DNA from: Globomyces pollinis-pini
Lineage: Eukaryota; Chytridiomycota; Chytridiomycetes; Rhizophydiales; Globomycetaceae
Assembly (NCBI GenBank): GCA_025399215.1
Contig: MU621556.1
Coordinates: 1 to 10,466, forward strand
Reading direction: 5' to 3'
Length of the DNA stretch: 10,466 nucleotides
Shown: positions 1,160 through 9,047 of the stretch, piece by piece
Position numbering within the stretch: position 1 is the first letter of the stretch
How the letters are laid out: every line of letters begins with the position of its first letter
Notes under the pieces: model-generated
What the model saw: only the letters and a program-made list of their open reading frames with translations
The model's database searches: none
Told to the model about the DNA's origin: nothing
Made by a program: the position numbers and the translations under genes

Positions 1160-4100
1160 TCAAGGGATTTCATACAATAATAATCCATCATACATATTAG
1201 CATTCAATTCCTTTGCAATTTGTGGATTTTTAAATACACCCACTTTGACAGATTCAACATTAAATCGACAATGGAAATTTGTACTATGATATTAAAAATA
1301 AAAAAACTTACTGGATGGCACGACCCATACCTTCAACGATAACAAGATCAACTTGGTGACTGGCTGCACACACTTCCTCCGAGATACGTGAAAAGTCAAG
1401 ACAAGGTGATCCAGATCCAGTAGGTACAATAGCCAACATATCAGTTGTGATGGCAATTTCAAAAATGGAATCCAATTTTGATATTTCATTCACAATTTGT
1501 TTCAATTCAGATGCCTTAGAGTTTAAAAAAAAAGAAATCATTTACAGTCACATCATTGACAGATGGATGTGTATTGGCAGCAATAGTCACATGTGTACCT
1601 ACAATAAAAATAAAAGTTATAGATACCTAGAATAAAATGAAATTAATAAACCTCGTTTTAATAGGTAGCGAACAAATGGTAGAATCCCAAAAATTAAATC
1701 CGCACCACTATTGTCAACAAAGATGATTGTTTTTTTATATGCATGAGTTAATAATCGATTGCGGAATTTCTCTTTATCATTTAATTTGAAATTAAATCCG
1801 ATTTTGGCCTATATTTGTTATTTTGAATCGTTTACTTTGGCTGATAGGAAATCCAACTCGCCTTTTTCCAACATGACTTGAATTTCAGAAGATCTAGGGT
1901 TAATGGTGGTGTGATTACCCCCTAACATGTTATCACATAGATGCATTACCAATCATACATATTTCCTGGTGATGAGAATACAAAAAAGCTTACCTGCCAT
2001 GATATTGTCCAATAATGTATCAACAAGCTGAGCAGGTTCAAGTAAATCAAGTTTGGTAATAAGTGGTACGAATCCCTTGATAGCAGCTGCATTCTCAGCT
2101 TCCTTTACACCACGGAAAATATCGTTGAATCCCATTTCACGAAGACATTGTTCACGTAACAATAACAAACTAACGTTTAAAACTATGTGCATACCTTCGC
2201 ACTGTTAAAGGTCCATACGCATTGGGTTTAGACCGAAGGGCGGTGAGATGATGTCGATACATGGATTCAAACATACTAGCTCTAGTTTCTGCATCCGAAT
2301 TCTTTTGTACTGCAATATCAACCAAATATTTCAAATTCACATCCAATAAATCAATCCAATAACTTTGTAGTGCAGGATCAGATAAATCTAATTTGGTTAG
2401 CTAATTAAACAATTACTGGATGTATCAGGGTTATAAGACTCCAAATCTTTTAACAATGGGAATGGAACTAAATCAGATGGATATTCTTCCAAAGTCCCTA
2501 CCGTCGATAATCCATTAATGGATAATTTATCAATATGTGAAAAATTTTCACTAAAGGATCCTAAACGTGTGTTGGAAGGTGGATCACGTAAAAAGGCACC
2601 CACAGCTCCCAAATATCCTTCATGACGGAGAAATTGGGCTTTCATCTTGCCTTTGGACCAGAATGAGATGGCGTAACTGAGTTGAGTTTTGGATATGATA
2701 CCTGGTTTTAGTTATCAAAAATCATTACCTGAATAGTTTATAAAAATATGATGTACCTACCTGTGTTACATTAAATATACATAGAGTACCTAACATTACT
2801 TAATATGAAAATACAACAAACCTGAGTGTATTCATAGTACTAGGATGTCCAGAGATATAAAAGCCACTGAAATAGATGCTAACGGTAAGTAATACAAAAA
2901 AATTACCGTTGAATACCATGCGCTTGAGCGTGCAAGTAAGCAATTTGTCCAATGTTGTTGCTGAGGTGAATATAGTTGGGTTACCTAACCATATAAAGTA
3001 GTGAAATGGCAATGTCTTCTTGTTTGAATGCCGTTTTGCGATCCTCGGGGGCAACTTTGATGACCTAATGTTGGATTGAATATTATTTTACCTATGATTA
3101 GTTATATTAAGATCTAATTACCTATGTTCATATCAATACCATATGTTGTACCTATAGTTTAGTTAGTATAGAGTACCTGTGAATGAGTACAAAAGCAAAT
3201 ACCTATCGTTAGGGCAAAACCAAAACCTAAGGTTAAAGTCAAACGAAAACTTTTCCAAGTGAAGAAGCAATAGTAGTACTTTTCAAACCGATCTTGGAGT
3301 AATCACTAACATGAACGACATACTATTCTTACCCACCATAGATATCACCTTGATGTTAATGACAAGACTTACCCACTAACATATCTATGTTTTTGTTGTC
3401 TCCATTTTTGGATATTTCTAGCATTTCGTCGTAGTCTTTTGCATCTGTCAAGAGCCCTAACAATCCCCATAACGTACCACCACCGAGAGATGTACCTTTT
3501 TGTTAGTTATAGATATACCTTTGTGTCAGATTTAATTATAATATACCTTTGTGTCAGATTTAATTATAATATACCTATGTGTCAGGTTTAGTTGTGTATA
3601 TACCTTTGTGTCAGATTGAATTATAATACCTATATGTCAGGTTTATAGATATACCTATGCATGAGTTCAAGTAAGATATATACCTATATATGAGGTTTCG
3701 TGATCGAGATACCTAAATATGAGTCAATATTAAAGAAAAAACCTCCAATACGTTCATAAGTTTCATCCGAGGTAACTTTGAGAATCGAGACACCAGAACC
3801 AATGTTGACAACCATATAAGGAAAGAGTTCTTTTGAAGTGGATTCGAATTGAATTGGATCTGGACGTCGTTCATCGTAAGTGAATACTTCGTAAGCAATT
3901 TGGCGGACCAGGAAGTTTAAACCGGTGATGAGACTGATTGTGAGTGATGAAGGGAATATTTGCAAGTGTTTTTGTGAGGTTATATGTGAATATTTATAGA
4001 TGCTTTGGTGATATTATCACATGTTTTGGTGATATTACGTGCACACATTGATATTATATGTAAAGAGGATCCAGTAGAAAGTACTTACCATTCCATTTCA

Positions 4101-4562: not shown

Positions 4563-4754
4563 TTTCTTATTTAAAAAGTAGTACAAGGGAATTCTTTATT
4601 TTACTACCTACTAAGTTAGGGTTATTTAGGAGTGGTTAGGGTTACTTAGGAGTAGTAGCTAGGGTTACTTGTTGTTAGGGTTATTTGTATTAGGGTTATT
4701 TGTTGTTAGGGTTATTTGTATTAGGGTTACTTGTTGTTAGGGTTATTTACTTTA
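4563..4754. promoter_or_regulatory. Divergent promoter region with eight TTAGGG-type motifs
   Basis: The 192 nt between the divergent PANK4-like and CPAP-like start codons contain TTAGGG (or CTAGGG) followed by TTA/TTAC at 4616, 4636, 4659 (CTAGGG), 4675, 4690, 4706, 4721 and 4737. The last five are spaced 15-16 nt. The copies are separated by TTTGTA/TTGTTG spacers, so this is not telomeric DNA. Similar motifs (telo-boxes, Tbf1-type sites) act in promoters of plants and fungi; a role in bidirectional transcription here is inferred. The last motif ends only 12 nt before the CPAP start codon, implying a very short 5' UTR or a motif within the transcript. Confidence 0.6.
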
Positions 4755-7070
4755 ATGATCAGTTTTGAAGACAGTGTAATTCATCATCGGTATCCATTAT
4801 TTATTATTTTAATTAAAGAAATCATTGGAATTCTTTATCTTCAGTAAATTCTTTATTAATTAAAGAATTAAAAAATATTGAATTATTTGACAATTCTTTT
4901 ATCGATTTACCTTCAATAGATTCTATTATATCAACTATACCAATCACTAATAATATTATTAATGACAACAATAACAATAATAATGAAATGGAAAATCAAA
5001 ATAAATCACTACTATCTCAATTACATTCATTACAAATAGAAAAGGTATCCATATCAAATAAAACATTTTAGGCAGATTGGAATAATTGGCATCATAACCA
5101 AATAAATAACTTGAAAGCTACTTATGATCTAGAATTAAAAAAATTAACTAGAGAAAAGTTACTATTACATAAAAATCATTTAGCTAATTCTATTCTACCT
5201 TCAAAAAAGTATTAAAAAATAATCTAAATATTAGAGATCGAATCGAAATTGAAGCATTAAAATCAAAATTATCGGATATAACAAATTCTTTCAAATCAAA
5301 AGAAATTAAATTAAACTCTACTATCGATCGTTTAACCAGAAAAGTTGCTGATTTGGAACGGAAACTAAATGATGCAACTATGGAAATTAGAGTACTGGAA
5401 GATCATCGTGCTAAAGACTTGGAATCTAGACAAAAATTGGTATCACTAATATTATTCATATTATAGGTATCCATATCACTCATTAATATCAATAGGTTTC
5501 CGATTACGAACACAAGATTGAAAATTTACAAAAATTAATACATAAAAATTCATACACTTTAAATGAAATTGAAGGAAACTCTAGTTTGACATCACAATCC
5601 AATCGTTTTAAACTAACATCCATGCAAGATATCAAACGTGACTTATCAGTTTATGGTAAAATTTGTTTGATTTATTCTAGGTTCAGATGGTATCTATATA
5701 ATGTTAACTCTAGATGGATTTGGAAAGAAAAGAAGTGTTCAAAGTAATCTGTTAAATAATGGAAAAGTATCGACTTTGACCGGTCAAAAAAAGAATGGCG
5801 TCACTATAAAGGCAAATGGAATGGATTCAAAGACAACTGGAATTAACTCAAAGGGAATGACATCTAAACTGGAGTTGAGTATGAAATCACACATAAAAGA
5901 TGTCAAACGTCAGTCAAACGATGTTAAAGATATTACAAAAGATGTCGAAACAAGCATGTACAACTCCAAAGAAAGTAAAAGTGGTTCAAACAAACAAATT
6001 TATCAATTAAATGGAAAAGGAAATAATTGCGGTTATGAATCAAAAGATTTAGAACCTCTAGAACGATATCCCAATCATCAATCACCCAATCAACGTCAAA
6101 GTATATATGCTGAAGCATACAAACGATCTGATTCACCAAAAGAAACCAATCATCTGAATACCAAACCTGGATTGAAAATCGGACAATCCAATTCACCTCA
6201 TTTCGAAAAAAACCCATCGTTACTAAAGAAACCATCAAGAATTACTATTTCAAATGTTGAAACTGATCATTTAAAACAAACAATAGATGTACAAGATAGA
6301 GATGATTATCATTCATCCAAGGAAGACTTGGATCGATTGGAATCCCGATTAGAACTAGATACGTGTGTAGAGGTTGCTTATTTTACATTAATGGTTAGGA
6401 ATATGTTTATTCAAAAGATGGTAAACATGAACGAAAATACCAGAACGGAACAAAACTGAGTTGGTTACCGAACGGTACCATGAAAATGTACCACCCAGAC
6501 AATATAATAGTGATATACTATAGCAATGGAGACTCAAAGACGGTATGATGTGGTATGGTAATGATAGACGTTTCCGGATGAACGAGTCATGTATTGGTAT
6601 AATGCTACAAAGACACAACATACCAGTTTCAAAGATGGATACGAGTTATTTGAATTCGAAAATGGTCAAGTTGAAAAGTATTTCCCGGATGGGATTCATT
6701 TAGTTGAATTCCCGGATGGGATCACAAAAACCGTGTACCCAGATAAAACTGTATTGTGATTGTATTGACAAGATAGGAAGAGATCCGATTTGGTAATGGC
6801 AAGATCCATATCAATGAACCTAGTGGTCGTAAGGTTATACTGATGCCTGACCAAACCCGGGAAGTTTTTGAGGATGGGATTCGATCGAAATGGTATCCGA
6901 ATGGGATTGTGAAACATGTGTATCCAAATGGATATCAAGAAACACGCTGGCCTAATGGCCAAGTACGAATCAAGAATGAAATGGTAATATTTTGATTGAT
7001 TGAATAATTTAAGGGTGTTGTAGTTTCCATGGTACCTGCTACTGATACAGTGGTTGAACCTTTGGTATAA
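4755..7070 (+). CDS. CENPJ: CPAP/SAS-4 (CENPJ) centriole assembly protein, 11 exons
   Basis: Spliced product is 671 residues, about half of human CPAP. Exons: 4755-4789, 4819-5044, 5072-5208, 5235-5439, 5496-5655, 5681-5689, 5714-6366, 6399-6542, 6568-6750, 6777-6983, 7014-7070 (TAA). All junctions keep one frame. Residues about 75-255 are charged, Leu-rich and coiled-coil-like. Residues about 258-475 are a polar Ser/Asn/Lys linker. Residues 476 to about 650 form the TCP10/G-box beta domain, with repeated (P/K)DG or PNG turns (YSKDG, WLPNG, YFPDG, VEFPDG, VYPNG, RWPNG) and the family ending QVRIKN. This domain binds STIL/Ana2-type partners in centriole assembly, so its presence implies centrioles or basal bodies. 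The tubulin-binding PN2-3 region was not recognised. The intron before exon 8 could be 6367-6398 (32 nt) or 6373-6398 (26 nt, donor GTTGCT); both are in frame and differ by two residues. Confidence 0.92.
5440..5495 (+). other. Tandem intron array G, 2 units
   Basis: Two units, 5440-5466 (27 nt) and 5467-5495 (29 nt), both starting GTATC, lie between coiled-coil exons coding DLESRQKL and VSDYEHKIE. The downstream exon begins GTTTCC, so AG|GT occurs at both the internal and the final junction. Confidence 0.82.
5656..5713 (+). other. Two micro-introns flanking a 9-nt micro-exon
   Basis: GT...AG introns 5656-5680 (25 nt) and 5690-5713 (24 nt) flank GTTCAGATG at 5681-5689. Including the 9-nt exon reads SVYGSDDGFG; skipping it reads SVYDGFG. 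Both are in frame. The alternative, a two-unit array with a 33-nt second unit starting GTTCAG, cannot be excluded, but the lengths 25 and 24 fit the local norm better. Confidence 0.65.
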
Positions 7071-7184
7071 TTTTGATGTAAATAATAAAAATTCACTAAA
7101 AAAGTCACGTGAGTATAACCCTAAGTTCTAGGGTTATGATGTTTTGTTCTGGAATCTTCAATTTTGAATTCTTTGATTTTAACA
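7071..7184 (+). promoter_or_regulatory. CPAP 3' end and CDC37 promoter
   Basis: This 114-nt spacer combines a poly(A) signal candidate AATAAA at 7084-7089, 14 nt after the upstream stop, a CACGTG palindrome at 7106-7111, and an 8-bp inverted repeat TAACCCTA (7116-7123) / TAGGGTTA (7129-7136) with a 5-nt spacer. The inverted repeat is the same motif family as the repeats at 4616-4742 and ends 48 nt before the CDC37 start codon. Regulatory function is inferred from position and recurrence. Confidence 0.55.
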
Positions 7185-9047
7185 ATGCCAATTGGTATGA
7201 AAGAAATACTAACAATTAGGTAACTTAAAAACTAGATTATTAAGTTGAAATAGGTATATAATATCTGATCTATTGATACATAGGTAATACAAACAATCTA
7301 ATAATTAGGTAATCATGAAAACAAACTTTAATATCAAGATTATTCAAAATGGGATTCTATTGAATTAAGTGATGATGAAGATTTCGAATGTCATCCAAAT
7401 GTGGATAAAAAATCAATGATACGATGGAAACAATCTCAAATCCATAAAGTATTTTATTTTGATATATAATGTTAGCAACGTCAAGAAAGATTGGATCAAA
7501 AGGAATTATTGACTTTAGAATACAGTCAAACCGAAAAATATTTGAAATTTATTGAAACTGAAATCAATATTTTGACATCAAAAAATCGTGATGAAATTTT
7601 ATTGGCATTGACGGACTTGAGTGAACGTGTGGATTCACAATTTACAGATCCTTTACGTCAAATGTCAATGACAAAGATGAGTAAATGGCCAGGGAATTGG
7701 GAACCACCTGAATGGGGTCCTGTTATCCGAAGGTTTGATTATATTTGTATTGATAAATAGTCATGTACCATGGACTGAAGAAATCAAACAGATTCAGAAA
7801 TCAGTTGAAGATCGATTAAAAGATACTAATGTTGATTTAAAATTGGTATTGACTGAATTATTTGAAGAATCAAATACAAAGTTTAAACTTCGACAACCAG
7901 TTATTCAAAAACAAATTGATGAATTTGAAGATTTAAAGAAAAAAAAGATTACCATGGATAATTTATCAACTGGGTTTAATTCAACTGTATATTGATTGAT
8001 GATTGATCTTAGTATGTTTCTAAATCGGAACCAAAGAATGTAGCTCCAGCAGCTGATCAAACAACTTCATCAACCGGAAAACAAATTGAAACAATTCATA
8101 CACCAAATTCCAAACCAATTTATTTTTCAAAACAAGTAAATATATCATTAGTTTTTATAAGTTAGGAAGAGCATGAAGTTTATGTATCAATGGATTCAAC
8201 TGATGAAAAACTTGTTGAATTACATCCTCAATTGTTAACTTTATCACGTACTTCTGATTATGGAATCATGGTTAAAATTCTAAAACAATTTCCTGATATT
8301 CAAAAAGAAAAGAATGAAGAAACTTTATTGTTGAGAGTATTATGTTTACAAATTATTGGAAATGCAAAGGAAGCAAAGAATTGTGTTTTGGTAACTTTAA
8401 TTTTAAAGTATACTCGATCTTTGGGTACCGTTGGTGTCGATGCTTTCTTTTCAAAGTACTATTTCAATTAATTATTTACATTTAGATTATTGGGTATAAC
8501 TAACATAAAATGTTAATTACCTTTAGGTAAACTAATTTAATTAAACATATTTAGGTAATTGAATAATTTATATTTTTATACTAGGTACTGGTTCAAGCGC
8601 ACAAAAATTGTTTTTCGAAGATGTAGACAAAACATATGAACATATCACCAATCGTGGTGCAATTCTACGTAAAGAGAGATTAGATAAGAAACAGGCTCAA
8701 TTACAACAAGAAAAGGCAAGAAAGGAATTGATTGAATCATTTACACAACCTGATGGTACTTTTAAATTACCAGTTGGAGAATCACCATCAGAAATGGAAT
8801 TGAAACAAGCTGAGTGGTTTGATAATTTACCACATGATTATAAAGGTAAATTATAGTGAAGTTTTAATGATTAGTTGGTTTGTTATATGAAGATGTAGAT
8901 AAGATTAATGCTTATTTGGGGAGTTTACCTGAAGAAGAAGCTTCTTATCAAGCTCAATTGGCTGGTACTTCATTTTAACTTAACTATTTTTTAGTCAAAG
9001 CTGGGTTTATTCAATTTGAAGAGGAAGATGATGAGGAACTTGAATGA
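7185..9047 (+). CDS. CDC37: Hsp90 co-chaperone Cdc37, 10 exons
   Basis: Spliced product is 475 residues, similar to fungal Cdc37. Exons: 7185-7194, 7339-7448, 7476-7732, 7761-7986, 8013-8135, 8166-8455, 8486-8493, 8585-8845, 8875-8964, 8995-9047 (TGA). The start is fixed by the family N-terminus [18 protein letters not shown]: exon 1 supplies three codons and one base, and the Asp4 codon is completed by exon 2. Ser14 in the SDDED context is the conserved CK2 site needed for kinase-client chaperoning. [14 protein letters not shown] and, near residue 195, [13 protein letters not shown] closely resemble fungal Cdc37. The Hsp90-binding middle domain follows from about residue 243 and includes YTRSLG and [18 protein letters not shown]. 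The acidic end EEEDDEELE is typical. It acts in the cytosol, loading protein kinases onto Hsp90. Intron placement is from frame and homology only. Confidence 0.95.
7195..7338 (+). other. Tandem intron array E, 5 units
   Basis: The Asp4 codon of Cdc37 (G|AT) is split by exactly five abutting GTA...AG units: 7195-7219 (25), 7220-7253 (34), 7254-7283 (30), 7284-7308 (25) and 7309-7338 (30), total 144 nt. Both edges are fixed by the conserved N-terminus. Unit 1 contains TACTAAC, a strong branch-point match, shortly before its AG. Unlike most arrays here, the downstream exon does not start with GT. Confidence 0.92.
8494..8584 (+). other. Tandem intron array F, 3 units, next to an 8-nt exon
   Basis: Units 8494-8526 (33), 8527-8554 (28) and 8555-8584 (30), all starting GTA, fill 91 nt between the 8-nt exon 8486-8493 (ATTATTGG) and an exon starting GTACTGG. 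The spliced reading is [17 protein letters not shown], matching the Cdc37 middle domain, so the micro-exon and the array edges are well supported. A 30-nt single intron (8456-8485) precedes the micro-exon. Confidence 0.88.

Follow-up and report, generated by a model that had tools for sequence, protein, structure and literature searches.

Genes and features of the locus

The window (the whole stretch of DNA analysed, C451:1-10466, 10,466 bases) comes from a 459-contig assembly that totals 18,547,825 bases. Its minus strand carries a pantothenate kinase gene (Fumble, PF03630), followed downstream by an ARMT1-like part that had a Pfam match under the curated cut-off and was treated as the same gene. 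Seven arrays of abutting GT..AG units, comprising 33 units, were found in the window: four in the kinase/ARMT1-like gene, two in a Cdc37 gene and one in a coiled-coil gene (Table 1). For array 2, an alternative first donor 6 nt further in would also keep the frame; the 24-nt first unit was adopted. One inner junction of array 3 is ambiguous by 4 nt, with two AGGT sites 4 nt apart. In the Cdc37 gene, an 8-nt exon (8486-8493), assigned by reading frame, separates a 30-nt intron from the three-unit array.

Positions 1-1005 of the plus strand form an open frame with 30-nt tandem repeats, encoding an extensin-like protein rich in Pro, Glu, Thr and Val (Pfam Extensin_1, under the cut-off). Interspersed TAGGGTTA-like (telomere-like) repeats with a 16/31-nt period were observed at 4612-4748, between two divergent genes. 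When the assembly was searched for another allele of the locus, or a paralogue, the window alone matched. A HEATR5-like reading frame in the same assembly had its best named match, with 66% identity, in Kappamyces sp. JEL0680, a member of a genus of the chytrid order Rhizophydiales. The host is thus probably a chytrid related to this group. A U2 snRNA carrying the branch-recognition sequence GUAGUA was found in the assembly. Rfam gave no U1 snRNA match in the assembly, and the control was without a match anywhere as well.

Table 1. Positions of arrays and single introns in the window.
Feature	Position	Strand	Gene and remarks
Array 1, nine abutting GT..AG units	3496-3742	−	Pantothenate kinase gene, within a Gly codon
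Array 1, units 1-5	3713-3742, 3684-3712, 3655-3683, 3630-3654, 3604-3629	−	
Array 1, units 6-9	3575-3603, 3547-3574, 3519-3546, 3496-3518	−	
Array 2, seven units (24, 24, 26, 25, 30, 30, 27 nt), 186 nt	3065-3250	−	Pantothenate kinase; gap-free there against CAB1
Array 3, five units, 145 nt	2677-2821	−	Pantothenate kinase; gap-free there against CAB1
Array 4, two units (25, 28 nt)	1599-1651	−	ARMT1-like part; tiling and frame read across
Array 5, five units (25, 34, 30, 25, 30 nt), 144 nt	7195-7338	+	Cdc37 gene, after ten coding bases
Array 6, three units (33, 28, 30 nt)	8494-8584	+	Cdc37
Array 7, two units (27, 29 nt)	5440-5495	+	Coiled-coil gene; frame read across
Long single intron, 155 nt	3934-4088	−	Kinase gene; donor GTAAGT, AGGT-free; frame restored as EMECLITGL
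Isolated intron, 24 nt	3349-3372	−	Pantothenate kinase
Isolated intron, 27 nt	3306-3332	−	Pantothenate kinase
Isolated intron, 24 nt	2961-2984	−	Pantothenate kinase
Isolated intron, 28 nt	2879-2906	−	Pantothenate kinase

Structure of array 1

Cutting the 247 nt of array 1 at its eight AGGT sites gave units of 30, 29, 29, 25, 26, 29, 28, 28 and 23 nt with zero leftover bases, and 9/9 units start with GT and end with AG. The array interrupts a single Gly codon in phase 1 (G/array/GT). It contains nine AG and nine GT dinucleotides in total, each of them a unit end or a unit start, whereas shuffling of the unit bodies predicts approximately 3.6 extra AG and 3.9 extra GT; no extras were observed. 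Exact tiling by units of 20-37 nt occurred in none of 40,000 dinucleotide shuffles. The initial annotation had reported nine GT...AG units of 23-30 nt tiling 247 nt without gaps, each of the size of a complete intron. The tiling was borne out by the cutting and the shuffles, and the units do match the ordinary intron size of the genome. Units 7 and 8 have the same sequence, and unit 5 is a near-copy of both, so that the array provides fewer than nine independent observations. When genes were parsed under a flat intron-length prior, without any model of units, 3496-3742 came out as an intron in one of three settings; the two stricter settings made no call there.

The branch motif CTNAY ends 6 nt upstream of the unit end in all nine units. 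At each of the eight junctions, the inner AG/GT would, by sequence, rebuild a donor after the first splice, as is characteristic of a zero-length exon. Exons 3' of arrays were often observed to start with GTA (window 3495 on the minus strand, window 8585, L030, L034), and in these cases the spliced mRNA would carry a donor-like site anew.

Proteins restored by exact removal

The kinase reads through after removal of the nine-, seven- and five-unit arrays and the four isolated introns. The spliced product aligned with yeast CAB1 without gaps at all three array points, reading ...YERIG and GTSLGGGTLWG... across array 1, and a spliced piece had 73% identity over 99% to a Mortierella pantothenate kinase. 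Both comparisons agree with the initial reading of the flanking protein (YERIG / TSLGGGTLWG) as unambiguous. Exact removal of a 10-unit, 285-nt array from a PHYHD1-like gene (L027 485-769, C12) likewise gave a protein that is gap-free at that point. The same held for five-unit arrays in a Rab8-like gene (L007, 160 nt) and a SAMHD1-like gene (L034, 142 nt). Removal of array 5 also left Cdc37 gap-free; here three residues lie upstream and the alignment starts at residue 3.

Intron lengths

With a learned length model, the parse called 551 introns of 23-42 nt, none of 43-69 nt, 14 of 70-110 nt and 74 longer ones, many of which are surely errors. The empty band at 43-69 nt is weak evidence, since it depends on a model trained on short introns and a flat prior fills the range: 76 introns of 38-75 nt were then called, and 13 of them tile where chance would give about 2.5. 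A minor class of single 70-85-nt introns with GTAAG donors was observed at L007 3268-3337, L014 7286-7364, and L015 5713-5796 and 9588-9672. The 155-nt intron of the kinase gene, which is supported by the protein, ruled out an absolute ceiling on intron length.

Splice signals in the units

A branch motif, pyrimidine-T-N-A-pyrimidine, was learned from 497 isolated introns, where most occurrences lie 4-10 nt from the 3' end; the motif also separated held-out introns from shuffles. The mean score was 4.19 in the 497 isolated introns, 4.06 in 246 array units and 1.84 in shuffled units. Units were close to isolated introns (p 0.12) and far from shuffles, although the p value of about 1e-63 for the latter is optimistic because a few coding-like repeats were left in the unit set and units within an array are related. 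A YTNAY match 4-10 nt from the end was present in 25 of the 33 units of the window, with 9.35 expected, and a strict match was absent in 8/33; 74% of isolated introns have such a match (26% are without) and 30% of shuffled ones. Internal AG was depleted to 0.74 of expectation in units and to 0.72 in isolated introns. Each unit has the features of a spliceosomal U2 intron, namely GT..AG ends, a branch motif at a set distance and a size typical of the genome. IES-like DNA elimination was dropped as an explanation: the GT and AG ends, the branch motif and the fungal affinity would all fit introns.

No depletion of units with a length divisible by three was found (88/245 units), which counts against removal unit by unit, although such units, if retained, would go unnoticed by decay. 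The first donor of hand-listed arrays in the window and L027-L034 was GTT in 8 of 16 cases, compared with 45 of 505 isolated introns, and that of array 1 is GTTTTT. GTAAG occurred in 1 of 17 hand-listed array first donors; it was the donor of 4 of the 14 called introns of 70-110 nt versus 49 of 508 short ones (p 0.04), a weak difference. The outermost donor, the sole site required by every removal route, is often weak.

Arrays across the assembly

AGGTA triplets at spacings of 21-35 numbered 294 genome-wide, against 109 for the mirrored pattern. TAGGTA pairs showed a comb-like distribution, with 377 at spacings of 19-35, 55 at 36-52 and 161 at 53-69, whereas mirrored control pairs were flat over the same bands (313, 284 and 276). 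This contrast is understated, since the mirrored word was commoner from the outset (in 210 kb, 731 isolated sites of mirrored ATGGA versus 383 of AGGTA). TAGGTA triplets were found 103 times, the mirrored control 10 times, and the 100 listed of the 103 fall into about 60 places by hand count. Junctions with other sequence escape a TAGGTA search, so these array counts are lower bounds. The array had at first been viewed as the oddity of a single gene; that view did not survive, as several of the window's genes have arrays and there are many more in the 18.5 Mb assembly.

Among the matches listed, runs of several units were observed at C102:3738-3995, C194:3382-3560 and C225:6566-6725. Near-identical 57-nt stretches bounded by TAGGTA occur on different contigs (C15:121640 and C359:7585), perhaps as a repeat or a duplicated region. 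The AGGT runs at L016 3462-3747 (plus strand) and L009 5821-5896 (minus strand) were judged by eye to be largely coding sequence and were kept out of the array counts.

Gene parsing of a 260 kb sample without the targeted loci gave 591 single introns and chains of two (11), three (3), four (2) and nine (1), with known misses and some doubtful chains. Too few introns emerged under a strong intron penalty, and that parse was replaced. When abutting introns were priced as separate ones, array 1 was not resolved into units; a lower price resolved it but still missed arrays in L003, L007, L009 and L017. A doubtful long element was present in parsed chains of L004, L018, L028 and L031 and of the window (2702-3372 and 7015-7338). 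Because of the misses and doubtful chains, the parse was used for isolated introns and otherwise as a rough guide.

Junctions are kept while unit bodies diverge

Among 100 listed TAGGTA pairs (of 161) at spacings of 53-69, 84 hold an AG/GT at unit spacing, versus 8.05% in shuffles; the remaining 16 were chance or coding sequence by eye. The bodies of adjacent units, with splice ends trimmed, had a median identity of 0.545 compared with 0.52 for random units, and 16/84 lay above the random 95th percentile. Broken junctions were sought with nine one-base variants of the triplet, covering three of the four junction bases (the G of AG and both bases of GT). With the middle junction altered in this way, TAHGTA was found 4 times (control 14), TAGGVA 0 times (control 10) and TAGHTA 4 times (control 11). 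In six of these eight matches an intact TAGGTA is present at unit spacing; the match in C84 has CAG/GTT at unit spacing, and that in C280 has no such junction. Hardly any array has one dead junction, despite the drifted bodies. Within this one genome, the inner junctions are conserved, as expected of recursive splicing.

Route of removal

The DNA itself displays exact tiling, branch motifs, junctions kept while bodies have diverged, and conserved proteins restored by exact removal. We propose that 3496-3742 very probably consists of nine complete spliceosomal introns with zero-length exons between them, removed singly or a few together. Each unit would bring a full set of signals (5' splice site, branch point, 3' splice site) and be recognised as an intron of 23-36 nt, and every AG/GT junction would act as the acceptor for one unit and the donor for the next. 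Any donor joined to any later acceptor would leave another AG/GT or the final exon junction. Since removal of any unit or run leaves AG/GT again, every order would yield the same mRNA. We infer from the sequence that units are removed one by one in the cell and that their order is free. The initial annotation had left open whether the array is removed as one long intron or stepwise, and had pointed to the logic of recursive splicing with zero-length exons. The DNA favours stepwise removal, since the junctions have outlasted the divergence of the bodies and the branch motifs of units resemble those of isolated introns; the recursive logic also appears sound, as an inner AG/GT would rebuild the donor on removal of any unit.

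The array might instead be one 247-nt intron, composed of the tandem remains of what was once a short intron, and spliced in a single step that uses the first GT and the last AG and leaves the inner junctions idle. Long single introns do exist in the genome, and that of 155 nt in this very gene means that size alone is no bar to removal of the array in one step. Units 5, 7 and 8 resemble a tandem repeat, and the most canonical branch site of array 1 (CTAAC) sits in its last unit. Relics, however, should decay like their surroundings, and the junctions do not; inner units also retain branch motifs and AG depletion as in isolated introns. The first donors of arrays, GTTTTT in array 1, differ from those of 70-110-nt introns in their share of GTAAG, but this difference is weak. 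Taken with the rest of the evidence, a single step appears improbable. Somewhat unlikely, but easier to entertain, is a mixed route in which removal usually takes a few large steps or one, the inner junctions serving as spare donors and acceptors under weak selection. Its redundancy would be built in, as any donor and any later acceptor give the same mRNA, and for this same reason DNA cannot separate such a route from strict unit-by-unit removal. Weak selection should nevertheless leave broken junctions, and only one of the eight matches to a broken pattern lacked AG/GT and was not array-like.

Origin of the arrays

The L027 array contains two identical and several close units, and L029 has five 27-nt near-copies (its flanks known from DNA alone). 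Among 166 units in 83 rows, pairs with at least 80% identity numbered 11 within arrays and 1 between arrays. Similarity that is high within arrays and scarce between them fits tandem duplication of whole units rather than mobile introners. Arrays would grow by tandem duplication of entire units, a harmless change, as each copy would be an intron in its own right; the copies would then diverge while selection maintains their splice signals. For arrays of unlike units, an origin by tandem duplication is presumed. Units could also be copies of a mobile, introner-like intron that inserted repeatedly at the AG/GT of existing introns, and most neighbouring units are indeed not recognisably alike, as expected of separate insertions. 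Introners, however, would be common to many loci, with near-identical copies at each, and the single between-array pair makes this origin very improbable.

Relation to known systems

Among open-licence PMC papers (for broad topics, the top matches only), no description of tandem arrays of complete spliceosomal introns was found, in line with the initial remark that no gene class built of such arrays had been described. One close parallel is recursive splicing, in which ratchet points act as zero-nucleotide exons (PMC8605326; Burnette 2005, as cited in PMC10809524): AG/GT are juxtaposed inside the intervening sequence, and stepwise removal regenerates the donor. Recursive splicing of this kind is described for long introns, whereas the segments here are 23-36 nt, up to ten in number and each of the size of an ordinary intron.

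Fungal stwintrons, as presented in PMC7138796, share with the arrays an intervening sequence of more than one U2 intron removed by consecutive reactions (predicted for the arrays); in Lipomyces starkeyi, one-step removal is also possible according to the same paper. A stwintron there comprises two nested introns, the inner lying within a splice element of the outer and excised in inside-out order. The array units, up to ten, are un-nested: they abut at AG/GT, and every one has a GT, a branch motif and an AG. The arrays share with dual-specific splice sites and the UBC array (PMC10809524) tandem AGGT sites able to act as donor or acceptor (here by sequence) and a link to tandem duplication. In sequence and conservation, the array AGGT junctions fit dual-specific sites. 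UBC units, as described there, are coding ubiquitin monomers kept in variable number; array units are non-coding and all absent from the conserved protein. Ciliate ultrashort introns have approximately 25 nt as a normal intron size, as do the introns here, but introns with a length divisible by three are depleted in ciliates, in contrast to the array units (PMC5014332). Three passages of that paper on such introns make no mention of abutting ones, with 0 occurrences of 'tandem'.

The logic is that of recursive splicing; the difference from known cases lies in the size of the units, their number and their spread over the genome. Multi-step splicing is probably an ordinary part of gene architecture in this genome, to judge from its DNA: an intron position may be occupied by one ultrashort intron or by an abutting run of complete ones, at least ten in the longest case; the units would be removed in any order, and their number would drift by tandem duplication. 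Recursive splicing is known mainly from long introns. This genome offers many short, fully defined substrates for asking whether abutting introns are removed in order by the spliceosome, whether a zero-length exon hampers the next round of splicing and what the lower size limit of a lariat is. Genes bearing arrays will be misread by predictors that do not allow exons of zero length. The arrays also suggest how new introns could arise simply, with no mobile element involved: by copying an intron beside itself.
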